64,000 bases of DNA from Opitutales bacterium (GTDB lineage Bacteria; Verrucomicrobiota; Verrucomicrobiia; Opitutales; UBA953). The DNA lies in the NCBI GenBank assembly GCA_017546455.1, contig JAFYWY010000005.1:1-64000 (forward strand). Direction: 5' to 3'. The notes beneath the pieces are model-generated. The model was not told the DNA's origin, searched no databases, and was given only the letters and a program-made list of their open reading frames with translations. Positions 33,582 to 43,024 of this stretch are shown one piece after another. Positions within the stretch are counted from its first letter, which is position 1. Every line of letters starts with the position of its first letter. A program made the position numbers and the translations under genes.

Positions 33582-34700
33582 TTAGTTTCCGGAAAATTCC
33601 GCGTCTCGGGCGGCAAGTTCGTCCGGAGTAATCGCCCCGATTTTAAACAACGAATAGTAATCCGTCAGCTTGTAGCGCAGGCGCCAGTATTCGGCAGCCA
33701 AATCCAGCCAGCGGCTTCCCGCCGCTTGGAAAATATCGTTTGCCGCGGCCAACACGGCTTCGCGTTGCCACCAAAATTCGTTCCCGTAACGCGCGAGACA
33801 CTTGGTCTGATTCCCTTCTTTGAGATCCGCCACGAACTCCTCAAACGTCAGCAGATTTTTTGCACACACTTCGAGAATTTTAAAATTCAGCTTCGTGTTG
33901 ATGCCCTCCGCCCGAAGCGCCGCCACCAGCTCGTTCAGGTTCGCATCCGCTTCGAGGAACGCCTGCCGCGCCTTCTTATAGCTCTCGAGAAGCGCGGGCA
34001 TTTGCTCTTCCCCGAAGGTTTCGATGAGAACACGTCCGCGGGAGCTCTCTTCCTTCGAAAGCTTTTTTTCGCCCGCCAAAATCTCCTCAATCATGCGAAC
34101 GCTCAGAGCCGAAGTTTCCAGCTCCTTTAAGGTCTCTAAGGCTTCTTTGCGTTCCCGCTCAATCCGCTCCTTCTCGAGACGGGCTTCTTCTTCGGCGACG
34201 CGTTTTTGCTCGGCCTCCATTTTCGCCTTTGTCGGAAGCGCCAATCCCGCTTCCCAGATTCGGGAACAGACATTCGCAACGCGCAAGTTCGGATCCTGCG
34301 ACAGTTTGGAAATAACGAATTCGACGTAAGCCGTCGCTTGCTTCTCCGCAAGTTCCGGATAAAGCGCCTGGGTGTCAAAGCAGATTTTGAGGTAAGCCTC
34401 TCGGCAGTGAATCGCGGCGTAGTTAAAAAGAGAAAACGTCCCCGTCGCGTCCTTCATTTCCCAAGGATTTGCACCTTTCGCGACAAAAAGCTCCACCACC
34501 GCGACGTTGCCGCGACTTGCGGCTTTCTTCAAAAAGGCTGCGGAAATCTCCGCGCCCTCGGCAATCGCCGCTTGAGCTTCGTTCGCCGTCAGCGAGTACT
34601 CATCCAAGCCTCGGGCAATCTTCTCGGTCGGGGTCATGCACGACGCCAAAAACGGCACGGCCGCAACGGCAAGAAGGCCTGCCAGCTTCGTCGGTGTCAT
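33582..34700 (-). CDS. Lipoprotein with ankyrin-like and coiled-coil segments
   Basis: 372 residues with a lipobox LASC at about residue 18-21. Residues 45-100 read like an ankyrin repeat (AAFLKKAASRGNVAVVELFVAKGANP). A Glu/Lys/Arg coiled coil occupies about 180-230, and the rest is helical. The C-terminal KIGAITPDELAARDAEF resembles HKAGLITAEKLGDADLAL in the next gene downstream, hinting at a shared short domain. It lies 11 bp after the coiled-coil gene and 35 bp before the SUMF1-like gene, so the three form an operon. Confidence 0.65.
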   Translation of the reverse strand: MTPTKLAGLLAVAAVPFLASCMTPTEKIARGLDEYSLTANEAQAAIAEGAEISAAFLKKAASRGNVAVVELFVAKGANPWEMKDATGTFSLFNYAAIHCREAYLKICFDTQALYPELAEKQATAYVEFVISKLSQDPNLRVANVCSRIWEAGLALPTKAKMEAEQKRVAEEEARLEKERIERERKEALETLKELETSALSVRMIEEILAGEKKLSKEESSRGRVLIETFGEEQMPALLESYKKARQAFLEADANLNELVAALRAEGINTKLNFKILEVCAKNLLTFEEFVADLKEGNQTKCLARYGNEFWWQREAVLAAANDIFQAAGSRWLDLAAEYWRLRYKLTDYYSLFKIGAITPDELAARDAEFSGN

Positions 34701-39124: not shown

Positions 39125-39229
39125 AGTGCCTGATGATTATGCGCATTCCCGCCGACAAGGCAAAAGCATAATCAGACACAACCCGATTTCGCCCCCAAAG
39201 CCGAAGCCATGCGACTACACAAAATTCAT

Positions 39230-39258
39230 TTGACAAAATACAGCAGCCACATATCTAT
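39230..39258 (+). promoter_or_regulatory. Sigma70-type promoter of the accessory island
   Basis: TTGACA at 39230-39235, 16 bp spacer, TATCTA at 39252-39257, about 37 bp upstream of the start codon at 39295. An AAGGTG ribosome site precedes the ATG. This is the clearest promoter in the window. Confidence 0.6.
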
Positions 39259-39294
39259 TGCGCCTCCAAATGTACAAAACAAGGTGATAAAAAA

Positions 39295-39934
39295 ATGAAA
39301 GCCTCTACCCCGATTAAAAAACATCACGGACGTTATTTGCCGTGGGCGGCGGGAAGCGCCGCATTCCTCGGACTTGTCGGAACGCTTTGGGCGATCTCCG
39401 AAGTTTTAGAAAGCGATACCGACGGCGACGGATGGACCGATGCCGAAGAAATTATCGCGGGAACCAATCCCTCCGATGAAACCGATCCTTGGGATTCCGA
39501 CGGAGACGGCATCGCCGACTACCTTGAATTCCTCGACGGGACCGACCCGCTCGCCCCCAACGATCCGCCGCAGGCTCGCGGCGCAAGCGTAGCGTACAGC
39601 GTCGCCGCAACGGTAAACGAAGCAATGGGAAGTGGCGATGATTCGTCGCGAATACGAGTACGCCGGTTTTTCCGGCTCTTGAGGAGATGAGAACGGGTAT
39701 ATCGGTACGTTAATTTGGGATTGTCCGGTACGATGGCAGTTTAGAGACGTTGAAAGGGATAGACGCGACGTCCTCGAATGCATAAACTCCGGCGTATATA
39801 AAAATGCGTTATTAAAGGCAGACGGGGCCCTTCCTACCCGCGTTCAAACGATGAAAATAAAACGCAATTCCCAAGAAAAAACACTATCCGTTTTCGTGGA
39901 AAAAGTTTTTCCCCAACCCTCAACAGAAGACTGA
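39295..39934 (+). pseudogene. Disrupted gene for an anchored protein with DxDxDG calcium-type repeats
   Basis: The first ~110 codons encode an anchored N-terminus (YLPWAAGSAAFLGLVGTLWA) and two thrombospondin-type-3-like units (SDTDGDGWTDAEE, DSDGDGIADYLEF). The frame then shifts at about 39640: the original frame yields an unnatural Arg-rich end and stops at 39690. Another frame (RREYEYAGFSGS, then ENGYIGTLIWDCPVRWQF and more) reads with normal codons, apart from one TGA at 39680, as far as TGA 39932. That end lies 3 bp before the next start codon. I read this as one gene with at least two lesions, possibly the two ends of a much larger protein whose middle was deleted. Confidence 0.6.
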
Positions 39935-39937
39935 GCG

Positions 39938-40963
39938 ATGATTAAAAAAATTTACCTGCTGTTATTTTTACTTTGTCCGTTGCTCCTAACCGCAACGGAA
40001 GCTGTGGAGTTTTACTTTGAAAACTATTACTGGCTGTCGCAGGGGCGCTTTTGTATTCGCTATCGCGAAGGCGTTCTTTTTGAGGAGCAGGTTCTGCCGG
40101 TTCTCAACAGGAGAATCACCAATGAGGGCTACTTCGCATGGCTTGATAAACGTTTGAAGCCGGAAAAAACACACGATGACATGATGGAGAACGTTTATTT
40201 TCAAAGAGATACTTGGCAGCTACGCACTTTCGACTTAGTGGTGAAGAAGGAACTGCTGGAAAAGGTCCTCGGAGAAAAATCCAATCTCCCGCGTGACGAG
40301 AAATATAGGCTTTATACGCGACTGTTTGCATCGCTTTACGATGAGCTTCTTACGCCCCAGGAATATAAGCAAGCTCAGGAGCAGTTTCACGATACGTGTA
40401 AACGAAGGGAGGCGTTAATCCCGAAACGCCTTGAGGCGGGCGTCCGGGATGAAATGGAAAGGTTGTACAGAGAAAGCTCCGGATATGCACTTCGAAAAGT
40501 TCGGCACGAAACAGTGAAGTCAGACCTTCCGCGAGTGTTTTATCCGCGTTTGGCCCAATTGCTTTTTAACGCTTATAATCGAACGCATCCGGAGCTCATG
40601 GTTGAACTCTTTGAGCTCAGCAGAATTCCCGAAAAGACGCATTACAAAGACCTCTTGGAGTTTGTGAGCATCTATTATTATCCGGATGCAAAAAAATATT
40701 TTACTCCGGAATTCCTCGAACGCTACGAAGCAATTATGCGAAAGCGAGAGAAGAGAGAATCGGAGTCTCCCCCGAAAGGAGCCGAGCAGGCGGAAACCTC
40801 CAAGGATAGAAGTAGGCCTGACGAGGAGGTAGCACAGTCCGAGTGCGAAAGTATTTCTTTGTGTTGGTATTTTACCGCGACCGGAATACTTGCCATCCTC
40901 TACAGCTTTTTCCTTTGGCTGAAAATCCGCTCCCAAAATTCGCGGGTTCCCCGAAAAAATTAA
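39938..40963 (+). CDS. Secreted, C-terminally anchored helical protein, island gene 1
   Basis: 341 residues: signal peptide (IYLLLFLLCPLLLTATEA), a charged mostly helical domain, a Ser/Pro/Glu linker, then a C-terminal transmembrane helix (CWYFTATGILAILYSFFLWL) and a basic cytoplasmic tail KIRSQNSRVPRKN. The domain is only distantly like the next two proteins, but the tail is nearly identical to theirs. AT-rich and rare-codon-rich compared with the flanking genes. No family recognised. It follows the disrupted gene by 3 bp. Confidence 0.65.
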   Translation: MIKKIYLLLFLLCPLLLTATEAVEFYFENYYWLSQGRFCIRYREGVLFEEQVLPVLNRRITNEGYFAWLDKRLKPEKTHDDMMENVYFQRDTWQLRTFDLVVKKELLEKVLGEKSNLPRDEKYRLYTRLFASLYDELLTPQEYKQAQEQFHDTCKRREALIPKRLEAGVRDEMERLYRESSGYALRKVRHETVKSDLPRVFYPRLAQLLFNAYNRTHPELMVELFELSRIPEKTHYKDLLEFVSIYYYPDAKKYFTPEFLERYEAIMRKREKRESESPPKGAEQAETSKDRSRPDEEVAQSECESISLCWYFTATGILAILYSFFLWLKIRSQNSRVPRKN

Positions 40964-41180
40964 ATCCCCAAGAGAGTTTGTGGAATTTCATCAACGAGGA
41001 GGAATGCAATGAAAAGATATGTTTTATTTTTTTTAGCTTGGGCTTCGACACTGAGTCTGTTTGCGGAAGATCCGCGCTATTTTCGCGAGCGTTACGATGA
41101 AAATGCACCGCTTGAACAACGCTACAATTACCTCTTGGGGAAACGAATTTCCGTAGAAAAAGACACCGCTTTTTTTTATG
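40905..41180 (+). repeat. Direct repeat unit 1 of the tandem gene array
   Basis: About 275 bp covering the tail codons of one gene, the spacer and the first ~57 codons of the next. It is nearly identical to 41865-42140, exactly 960 bp away. The spacer GAGTTTGTGGAATTTCATCA and the AGGAGGAATGCA ribosome site are perfectly conserved. Confidence 0.85.
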
Positions 41181-41923
41181 ACGAGTCCGTCAAAACGAGT
41201 AAGCAAAACAGTGATGTCTGGGATTTGGAAGCAAAGCTAAAGCTCATAAAGGATTTGGATTTCAGGGTAGATTCTTTTATCGGGCATCGTACGCCGGAGG
41301 AGTGGGCTGCCGACAAGGTACGTGCCATTGAGATGGAGGTAGAGCTCTTCCGCGATATCTATGAGGAGTATCAACCTAAAGGTCTGGAGGGCCTACAAAA
41401 GCAACTCAAAGAGCGTATAAAAGAGTATATTGCGACGAGAACGCAGGAAAGCCACGAACAGTACCTGAGAGCCAGATTTGCGCGAGAACGAAACAAACGC
41501 ATTCTCAGGATTCATGAAGAACGCTATCTTATCAAGGCTTTGGCAAATAACTTTCGCGACAATCTTCCCCGTATGCTTGAACTCTATGACAGAAGCCTCT
41601 TGGAAAAGAGAGGTTTGACGCTTTCGCGTTTCCTGGAAATCCAGCGCCCTTATGAGAAGCAACTCATACAGCAATTAAAAGAGCTTGAAGAAGAAAAAAG
41701 GCTCGAGGGTGAGCGCAAAAATCCAACGCGCGAGGAGCTCAGCATGCCAAGCGGAATAAGTCCCCGCACTGTAGCAGACAGCGGGAACTCGCACACGACT
41801 TCCTCGGATTCGAGATTCCCTTGGTTGCCGGCTTTTTTCGGCTGCGTGGTTGTGCTCTTCGTCGGCCTTTTTCTTTGGGTGAAAATTCGCTCCCGGAATT
41901 CGCGGGTTCCCCGAAAAAATTAA
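41009..41923 (+). CDS. Secreted, C-terminally anchored helical protein, island gene 2
   Basis: 304 residues. Signal peptide YVLFFLAWASTLSLFAED, then a helical, strongly charged periplasmic domain, a Ser/Thr-rich linker, a membrane helix (LPAFFGCVVVLFVGLFLWV) and the tail KIRSRNSRVPRKN. The first ~57 residues are almost identical to the next gene. Residues about 60-250 have diverged strongly, although the order LFRDI-EEY, (R/K)EYI-RTQESH and DNLP-ML-YD(R/K)SLL persists. A strong AGGAGG ribosome site precedes it. Function unknown. Confidence 0.7.
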   Translation: MKRYVLFFLAWASTLSLFAEDPRYFRERYDENAPLEQRYNYLLGKRISVEKDTAFFYDESVKTSKQNSDVWDLEAKLKLIKDLDFRVDSFIGHRTPEEWAADKVRAIEMEVELFRDIYEEYQPKGLEGLQKQLKERIKEYIATRTQESHEQYLRARFARERNKRILRIHEERYLIKALANNFRDNLPRMLELYDRSLLEKRGLTLSRFLEIQRPYEKQLIQQLKELEEEKRLEGERKNPTREELSMPSGISPRTVADSGNSHTTSSDSRFPWLPAFFGCVVVLFVGLFLWVKIRSRNSRVPRKN

Positions 41924-42140
41924 ATTCCCAAGAGAGTTTGTGGAATTTCATCAACGAGGAGGAATGCAATGAAAAGATATGTTTTATTTTTTTTAGCTTG
42001 GGCTTCGACACTGAGTCTGTTTGCGGAAGACCCGCGCTATTTTCGCGAGCTTTACGATGAAAATGCACCGCTTGAACAACGCTACAATTACCTCTTGGGG
42101 AAACGGATTTCCGTAGAGAAAGACATCGCCTTTTTTTACG
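41865..42140 (+). repeat. Direct repeat unit 2 of the tandem gene array
   Basis: Second copy of the ~275 bp unit at 40905-41180, offset by 960 bp. Only a few substitutions separate the two. Recombination between them would delete or duplicate one gene. Confidence 0.85.
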
Positions 42141-42871
42141 ATAAGTCAATTCAAGCATACAAGCAAAACAGTAGCGTCTGGGATTTGGAGGCGAAGGCTA
42201 ATCTCCTTTGGAAGTTAGGTAGAACGTCCATCGTTTTGGTCGGAAGGGAAGAAGGCGATGAGTGGAAGTTACCGAGACTGCGAGCATTGGATATGCAGGT
42301 TAATCTCTTTCGTGATATTTTTGAGGAATATTTTCCCGAAAAACAAGAGGAGTTGGAAGGTCAGCTTCGCGAACGCATTCGTGAATATATTGAGTTAAGG
42401 ACACAAGAAAGCCACAAGCGTTATCTGGAGGCGATGTTTGCTCGGGATAGAAATCGTTTCATTGCCAATAATATATTTCCTTACGACTTCATTCGTTCTC
42501 TTGTCGGAAATTATCATGATAACCTTCCCGTTATGCTTGATTTTTACGACAAAAGCCTTTTGGGGAAAGGAGGAAAGATGACTCTCTCGAAATACGTCAA
42601 AATTGAATACCCGAAAAAGACACAGCTAATTCAACGACTGGAAATTCTTGAAAAAGAGCGCGAAGCAGCTGCAAGTGCCGCTAAAAAGCTTCCCGACAGA
42701 GTAGATGTGTCCGCGACAAAAGAGGGTTCCGCTCCGCCCGCTTCACCTGTCGTTGAGGTTTCGGATAACTCAATCCGCCGGTGGCATTTTTTTGCGGCTA
42801 TTGCCGTAATTTCCCCACTCGTCGGCCTTTTTCTTTGGCTGAAAATTCGCTCCCGAGAGAAGAAGAACTAA
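41969..42871 (+). CDS. Secreted, C-terminally anchored helical protein, island gene 3
   Basis: 300 residues and a paralogue of the previous protein: same signal peptide and N-terminal RYNYLLGKRISVEKD, a diverged middle, a Pro/Ser-rich linker, membrane helix (WHFFAAIAVISPLVGLFLWL) and a shortened tail KIRSREKKN. The last gene of the array; the spacer repeat does not follow it. In topology it is a type I membrane protein with a periplasmic helical domain. Possible roles include immunity or surface-sensing proteins of a polymorphic locus, but nothing proves it. Confidence 0.7.
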   Translation: MKRYVLFFLAWASTLSLFAEDPRYFRELYDENAPLEQRYNYLLGKRISVEKDIAFFYDKSIQAYKQNSSVWDLEAKANLLWKLGRTSIVLVGREEGDEWKLPRLRALDMQVNLFRDIFEEYFPEKQEELEGQLRERIREYIELRTQESHKRYLEAMFARDRNRFIANNIFPYDFIRSLVGNYHDNLPVMLDFYDKSLLGKGGKMTLSKYVKIEYPKKTQLIQRLEILEKEREAAASAAKKLPDRVDVSATKEGSAPPASPVVEVSDNSIRRWHFFAAIAVISPLVGLFLWLKIRSREKKN

Positions 42872-42881
42872 GTAAAAAACT

Positions 42882-42976
42882 ATCCACGAATTTTGCCTAC
42901 GGCGGTAAGCAGAGAATGGTGAATCGTAAGCCGAATTGCTCTTCCGCCATTCTTGAAATCCGTGTAATTCGTGGAT
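42882..42976. repeat. Imperfect inverted repeat downstream of the island
   Basis: ATCCACGAATT at 42882-42892 and its complement AATTCGTGGAT at 42966-42976 enclose about 73 bp with further partial matches (AAATCCGTGTAATTCGTGG). GTGAATGG-type repeat units lie inside. It marks the right border of the AT-rich island. Confidence 0.6.
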
Positions 42977-43024
42977 TTCTTTCGAAAAAAATGCATTTTG
43001 TGATGAGCTCGCAATGTCGCTAAA

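Follow-up and report, generated by a model that had tools for sequence, protein, structure and literature searches.

What keeps the two ends of neighbouring secreted, membrane-anchored proteins nearly constant while their middles diverge? The question is raised by three consecutive genes in a 64,000-nucleotide stretch of an Opitutales bacterium genome (assembly GCA_017546455.1, contig JAFYWY010000005.1, positions 1 to 64,000; hereafter the window), which an initial annotation had likened to cassette-type diversification or to arrays of immunity or surface proteins. We find that the three genes are probably orphaned immunity-like genes from a polymorphic toxin/immunity-like system, left behind after deletion of the presumed toxin gene.

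A tandem array with shared ends

The reading frames lie where the initial annotation had placed them, all on the forward strand, and the shared unit of genes 2 and 3 does recur at the reported 960-bp offset. Below, partner-type refers to secreted proteins encoded directly behind a large gene, A.

39938-40963, + strand: gene 1 (341 aa), partner-type protein with signal peptide, lumenal domain, linker and C-terminal transmembrane (TM) anchor with basic tail
41009-41923, + strand: gene 2 (304 aa), partner-type protein with a predicted, mostly helical lumenal domain, a low-confidence linker and a predicted TM helix at residues 273-297
41969-42871, + strand: gene 3 (300 aa), tandem paralogue of gene 2, conserved at both ends and diverged in between
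40905-41180, + strand: homology block copy 1, comprising the gene 1 end (anchor), spacer and gene 2 start; identical to copy 2 at 262 of 276 positions
41865-42140, + strand: homology block copy 2, comprising the gene 2 end (anchor), spacer and gene 3 start
42880-42990, + strand: dispersed intergenic repeat (TCCACGAATTTTGCCT...) after the array, with about 15 genomic occurrences, often following a partner gene and also elsewhere

The 276-bp blocks sit within a 300-nt direct repeat (40896-41195 and 41856-42155, 92% identity, 960 nt apart), and the 45-bp spacers before genes 2 and 3 are identical at 44 of 45 positions. Codon analysis of these two genes gave 96% amino acid identity over the first 55 codons (dS 0.12, dN 0.02) vs 43% in the middle (dN 0.56 and a saturated pS of 0.84), with dS down again to 0.23 in the last codons near the anchor. 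The last 17-22 codons of gene 1 match the gene 2 anchor at a dS of about 0.22-0.28. This anchor is all that gene 1 has in common with its neighbours, as had been proposed: a MAFFT alignment hinted that gene 1 is a distant homologue of genes 2 and 3, which found no support in BLASTP or hhalign, neither of which detected similarity in its lumenal part. Because the ends of genes 2 and 3 are alike even at silent sites and in noncoding DNA, beyond the reach of protein constraint alone, we infer from the dS pattern that recombination has kept the array ends similar.

A search for the tail elsewhere in the genome, suggested at the outset, located the array DNA block at 12 places and the anchor on 16 proteins. 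These proteins clustered together when whole sequences were compared; with signal peptide and anchor removed, they fell into six unrelated groups (two clusters, of eight and four members, plus four singletons). When nine tail codons were compared across twelve genes, pairs encoding the same residue used different codons in 35% of cases vs the 64% that codon usage would predict, so the anchor DNA is more alike than the protein demands.

The array is AT-rich, as first described (GC 45.8% vs 55.9% for the window), and ranks among the lowest in GC of 611 windows of the same size. The impression that it belongs to no known family also held, with none of the three proteins matching Pfam or NCBIfam above cut-off. 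For the proposed structural check on the central domain, the gene 2 model (pLDDT 60) is mostly helical, and a fold search with it returned nothing at E<=0.001 and middling Z values for helical arrangements. A TM segment followed by a KIRSR tail is common among anchored partners. With PEP-CTERM-like sorting signals in mind, we found no NCBIfam match for the three window proteins or the partners on contigs C64 and C11; the C13 partner matched PGF-CTERM weakly (E=0.26).

A broken gene A upstream of the array

The initial annotation had overlooked what lies upstream. Judged by sequence comparison, 39295-39935 is an internally deleted copy of the repeated large gene A, which makes the array the downstream part of a two-gene unit.

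39218-39294, + strand: putative promoter/5' leader of gene A (TTGACA stretch), common to other A copies
39295-39690, + strand: gene A N-terminal remnant, with hydrophobic anchor and TSP3 repeats; homologous to about 39648 and thereafter out of frame
39701-39935, + strand: gene A C-terminal remnant in another frame, the A middle being deleted; its stop lies 2 nt before gene 1

The N-terminal remnant is 77% identical to residues 1-110 of the A protein on contig C41 and matches TSP3_bac at E=7e-11. The C-terminal remnant aligns with the C-terminus of the A protein on contig C55 (36% over 77 columns, E=4e-9), and the partner of that same A gene is 85% identical to gene 2: the same A type stands beside the same partner type. 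A clear promoter belonging to the array itself, as originally claimed, was not recovered, since a sigma-70 scan detected none immediately before 39938; the promoter probably lies in the TTGACA-containing stretch around 39218-39294. This leader is common to eight of ten aligned A starts, window included (seven other copies, one of them a remnant). From about 39213-39221 onward the region is 82-84% identical to A loci by blastn, and the DNA further upstream is unrelated between copies.

Partners without an intact A recur in the same genome. Contig C64 retains a partner next to an A gene whose internal deletion differs from that in the window, and C38 has a partner immediately after an A-type leader. 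On C50, an A gene and its partner are followed by small secreted proteins of a family that we call C, alternating with further partners and with no A between them. C-family proteins (L015:7813-13200 and L102:692-2505; motif PNVYxEDENYFYVW...GxIIDK) either alternate with partner genes in this way or come after one tip group, and their domain is fused to A in genome G001. By eye, ankyrin-like lipoprotein genes are also present (L051:224-2725 and window 33582-34700), and the C19 example immediately precedes another A copy.

Some eleven contig ends lie within A copies (C10, C13, C19, C35, C50, C55, C67, C79, C84, C93 and C98; loci L014-L015, L045-L052 and L103), which indicates that the assembly broke on A repeats. 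Counts of A and partner genes in this fragmented genome are therefore lower bounds, and further loci are probably missing from the assembly. The same fragmentation, with contigs ending in A repeats, could suggest that strain-mixed reads gave chimeric genes 2 and 3. We consider such an artefact extremely unlikely: the array lies on a 68.7-kb contig with ordinary flanks, and comparable tandem arrays and A-partner pairs occur in other genomes, one of which (G238) is in a single contig.

Gene A tips and their partners

A proteins consist of an N-terminal basic and hydrophobic segment, TSP3 repeats, a module weakly like choice-of-anchor C, which we propose to be beta-sandwich-like, and a C-terminal tip. 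As in polymorphic toxins, a constant N-terminal part carries variable tips, with a sharp drop in similarity at residue 464: the A41, A11 and A13 copies are 87-90% identical through that residue (pS 0.22-0.43) and 35-44% identical over the last ~165 residues (pS 0.75-0.82, near saturation). The A50 copy is 69% identical before the tip and 30-32% within it.

The commonest tip is read as a transglutaminase-like enzyme from its motif and from sub-threshold matches. The order Cys, His, Asp-Pro-Ser is invariant in an alignment of 18 tips, five from the same genome as the window and 13 from other genomes; the C20 copy, left out of this alignment, has Ala in place of Asp. Transglut_core matched five of the 18 over the Cys region (best E=0.0013, 19.4 bits against a cut-off of 23), the best PDB profile match was peptide:N-glycanase over the catalytic Cys (E=0.005), and an AlphaFold model of the tip was poor, with a pLDDT of 38. 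Related N-terminal parts carry other tips, including an alpha/beta hydrolase on C93 and the C55 type, which is cognate to the window array and could be assigned neither to a family nor to a catalytic motif. In G003, an A-like module is joined to a different C-terminus and followed by an overlapping secreted gene (L096:2988-5217); this tip looks lysozyme-like by eye, from the string GWGISQIDG, but Pfam and PDB searches gave that no support. Several genomes of the family hold a second conserved pair, in which a TSP3 plus alpha/beta hydrolase protein is immediately followed by a secreted or lipoprotein-like partner (L049:3803-7550, L098:3590-7281, L099, L100 and L101).

We examined partner genes at 21 loci with transglutaminase-like tips, drawn from the window's own genome and 13 other genomes of the phylum. 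At 20 of them, a separate secreted partner starts between -23 and +28 nt from the A stop, a count somewhat biased in that direction because the script that picked starts preferred hydrophobic N-termini and short distances to the A stop. At the remaining locus, in G001, a partner-type domain of the C family is fused to A. A partner directly downstream is what polymorphic toxins would predict for an immunity gene. All 20 partners have an N-terminal signal or membrane segment (two, from C11 and from G409 C9, judged by eye); by inspection, nine finish with a TM segment followed by a short basic tail, and about half have no C-terminal anchor. They form about ten families unrelated by sequence. G508 has three tandem partners, two clearly anchored, much like the window; partners in G503 have near-identical C-termini and diverged middles, and G019 has a tandem pair. 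Tips and partners appear to diverge together in the four pairs compared, partner identity being 36% where tips share 44% and 17-22% where tips share 30-37%.

These observations bear on what A and its partner do to each other. An enzyme acting on an anchored substrate or adaptor, with A cross-linking or processing its membrane-bound partner to build a surface structure and partners varying with surfaces, would fit the transglutaminase-like triad, the TSP3 and adhesin-like modules of A and the fusion in G001. It sits poorly with the finding that a single enzyme family is accompanied by about ten unrelated families of partner, with partners kept where A is deleted, and with divergence located in the catalytic tip instead of the stalk modules; we regard it as unlikely. 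The invariant order of A then partner, their tight coupling and the matching of their types would suit a cis-acting inhibitor or chaperone that silences a dangerous secreted enzyme up to its exit from the cell and plays no part between bacteria. Partners kept without A, as in the window, on C64 and C38 and in the C50 tail, would then be useless, and we judge this explanation more improbable still.

The cassette-type reading of the initial annotation survives in part. The secreted, C-terminally anchored layout and the mosaic ends stand; of cassette machinery, neither a recombinase nor a retroelement was seen beside the array. Its surface version, in which middles vary to escape recognition by phage, predator or host, would account for the mosaic ends, variable middles and low GC, but we hold it to be very unlikely given that no recombinase was seen there, that variability tracks an enzyme tip, and that the inner-membrane-type C-terminal anchor and basic tail of the partners predict a periplasmic orientation. 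The array centres appear, from these comparisons, to be matched to the variable tips of A instead of being free-standing cassettes.

Transglutaminase-like tips are sporadic, occurring in 11 of 388 genomes across the phylum and in six of 373 in the order. Among 57 genomes (own, genus, family and order, the relatives being represented by one genome per species), gene 2 matched its own genome alone and none of the 56 relatives; it had no match in GTDB or IMG/VR. The A protein matched 11 loci in GTDB, the matched query residues centring on the TSP3 repeats, and neither A nor one tip matched IMG/VR. PADLOC gave no match, and PHROGs yielded a weak match to the TSP3 region of A (E=0.0013) from a family without known function.

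A probable toxin/immunity-like system and its known counterparts

The combination of variable tip, matched partner, coupled gene order, orphan tandem partners and recombination through end blocks is the pattern of published immunity systems, and it is on this pattern that we favour an orphan immunity-like array. Under this interpretation, A would be exported and tethered to the envelope, with a hydrophobic N-terminus, a TSP3 stalk, a beta-sandwich-like module and a variable tip. The partner gene directly behind it, probably translationally coupled, would specify a protein that begins with a signal peptide, continues with a lumenal domain and often ends in a membrane anchor with a basic tail; this protein would sit at the inner membrane, facing the periplasm, and block the tip there. 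The tip would act in the envelope, presumably harming the cell, after delivery of A from one cell to another. Tips and partners would diversify together; A would be lost by internal deletion, and the retained partners would duplicate and recombine across the DNA that they share in the anchor, spacer and signal peptide, giving constant ends and variable middles.

A broader proposal, which we advance as a possibility with the odds somewhat against it, is a phylum-level, undescribed form of contact or envelope antagonism in which TSP3-stalk proteins, apparently with no dedicated injection machine, set interchangeable tips (transglutaminase-like, hydrolase or of unknown type) against periplasmic anchored immunity proteins, and in which recombination via an anchor cassette shared at the DNA level diversifies those partners. 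As to delivery, A has no known toxin-trafficking domain (the N-terminal hydrophobic segment and TSP3 repeats are all that was seen) and a search for a T6SS sheath gene in its genome came back negative, which counts against the orphan immunity-like array; a signal peptide alone is one of the listed export routes of polymorphic toxins (PMC3482391). Several further findings weigh against it: a fusion such as that in G001 would be uncommon for an immunity protein, roughly half of the partners have no C-terminal anchor, the C55-type tip to which the window array is matched belongs to no recognisable family and shows no such motif, and the interpretation does not account for the C-family proteins alternating with partner genes on C50.

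If this reading is right, the phylum gains a toxin/immunity-like arsenal of its own and provides a clear case in which recombination via shared anchors diversifies immunity-type genes. The catalytic class would be C-terminal transglutaminase-like tips with an intact Cys-His-Asp triad, which we did not find described for such systems. The literature searched held no earlier description of a TSP3/transglutaminase toxin-immunity pair, an absence that is weak evidence. The tip-partner pairs are small, and each could be tested in a laboratory strain.

Among enzymes, the A tip resembles the transglutaminase-like superfamily (PF01841; peptide:N-glycanase) in its Cys-His-Asp order and in local similarity around the Cys, but every member falls under the Pfam cut-off and no solved relative was found by sequence past the Cys region. 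The closest parallels to the array are the esaG and tipC T7SS immunity arrays of Firmicutes (Garrett et al. 2022, PMC9484751), which likewise consist of tandem, non-identical immunity genes diverged between high-identity blocks and shaped by recombination; the blocks are gene ends in tipC and spacers in esaG, and TipC has a predicted lipoprotein signal. Their proteins are unrelated to those described here and come from a different phylum, and their toxins are T7SS-exported nucleases or lipid II phosphatases, whereas A combines a TSP3 stalk with a transglutaminase-like tip and has no known secretion machine. The T6SS orphan immunity arrays of Vibrio cholerae (Kirchberger et al. 2017, PMC5361080) also retain old immunity genes downstream once effectors are lost or displaced; there, new modules displace the effector, whereas here A is internally deleted and a T6SS sheath gene was not found. 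In polymorphic toxin systems (Zhang et al. 2012, PMC3482391), transglutaminase domains are N-terminal and inactive, in contrast to the C-terminal tips with intact triad reported here, and our partners differ in matching no Pfam or NCBIfam immunity family and in often carrying a C-terminal membrane anchor. With these systems A and its partners share a constant N-terminal part, a variable C-terminal tip and an adjacent partner gene, and the window resembles their polyimmunity loci in its tandem partners, here three on one strand, separated by small 45-bp spacers with no toxin gene between them.
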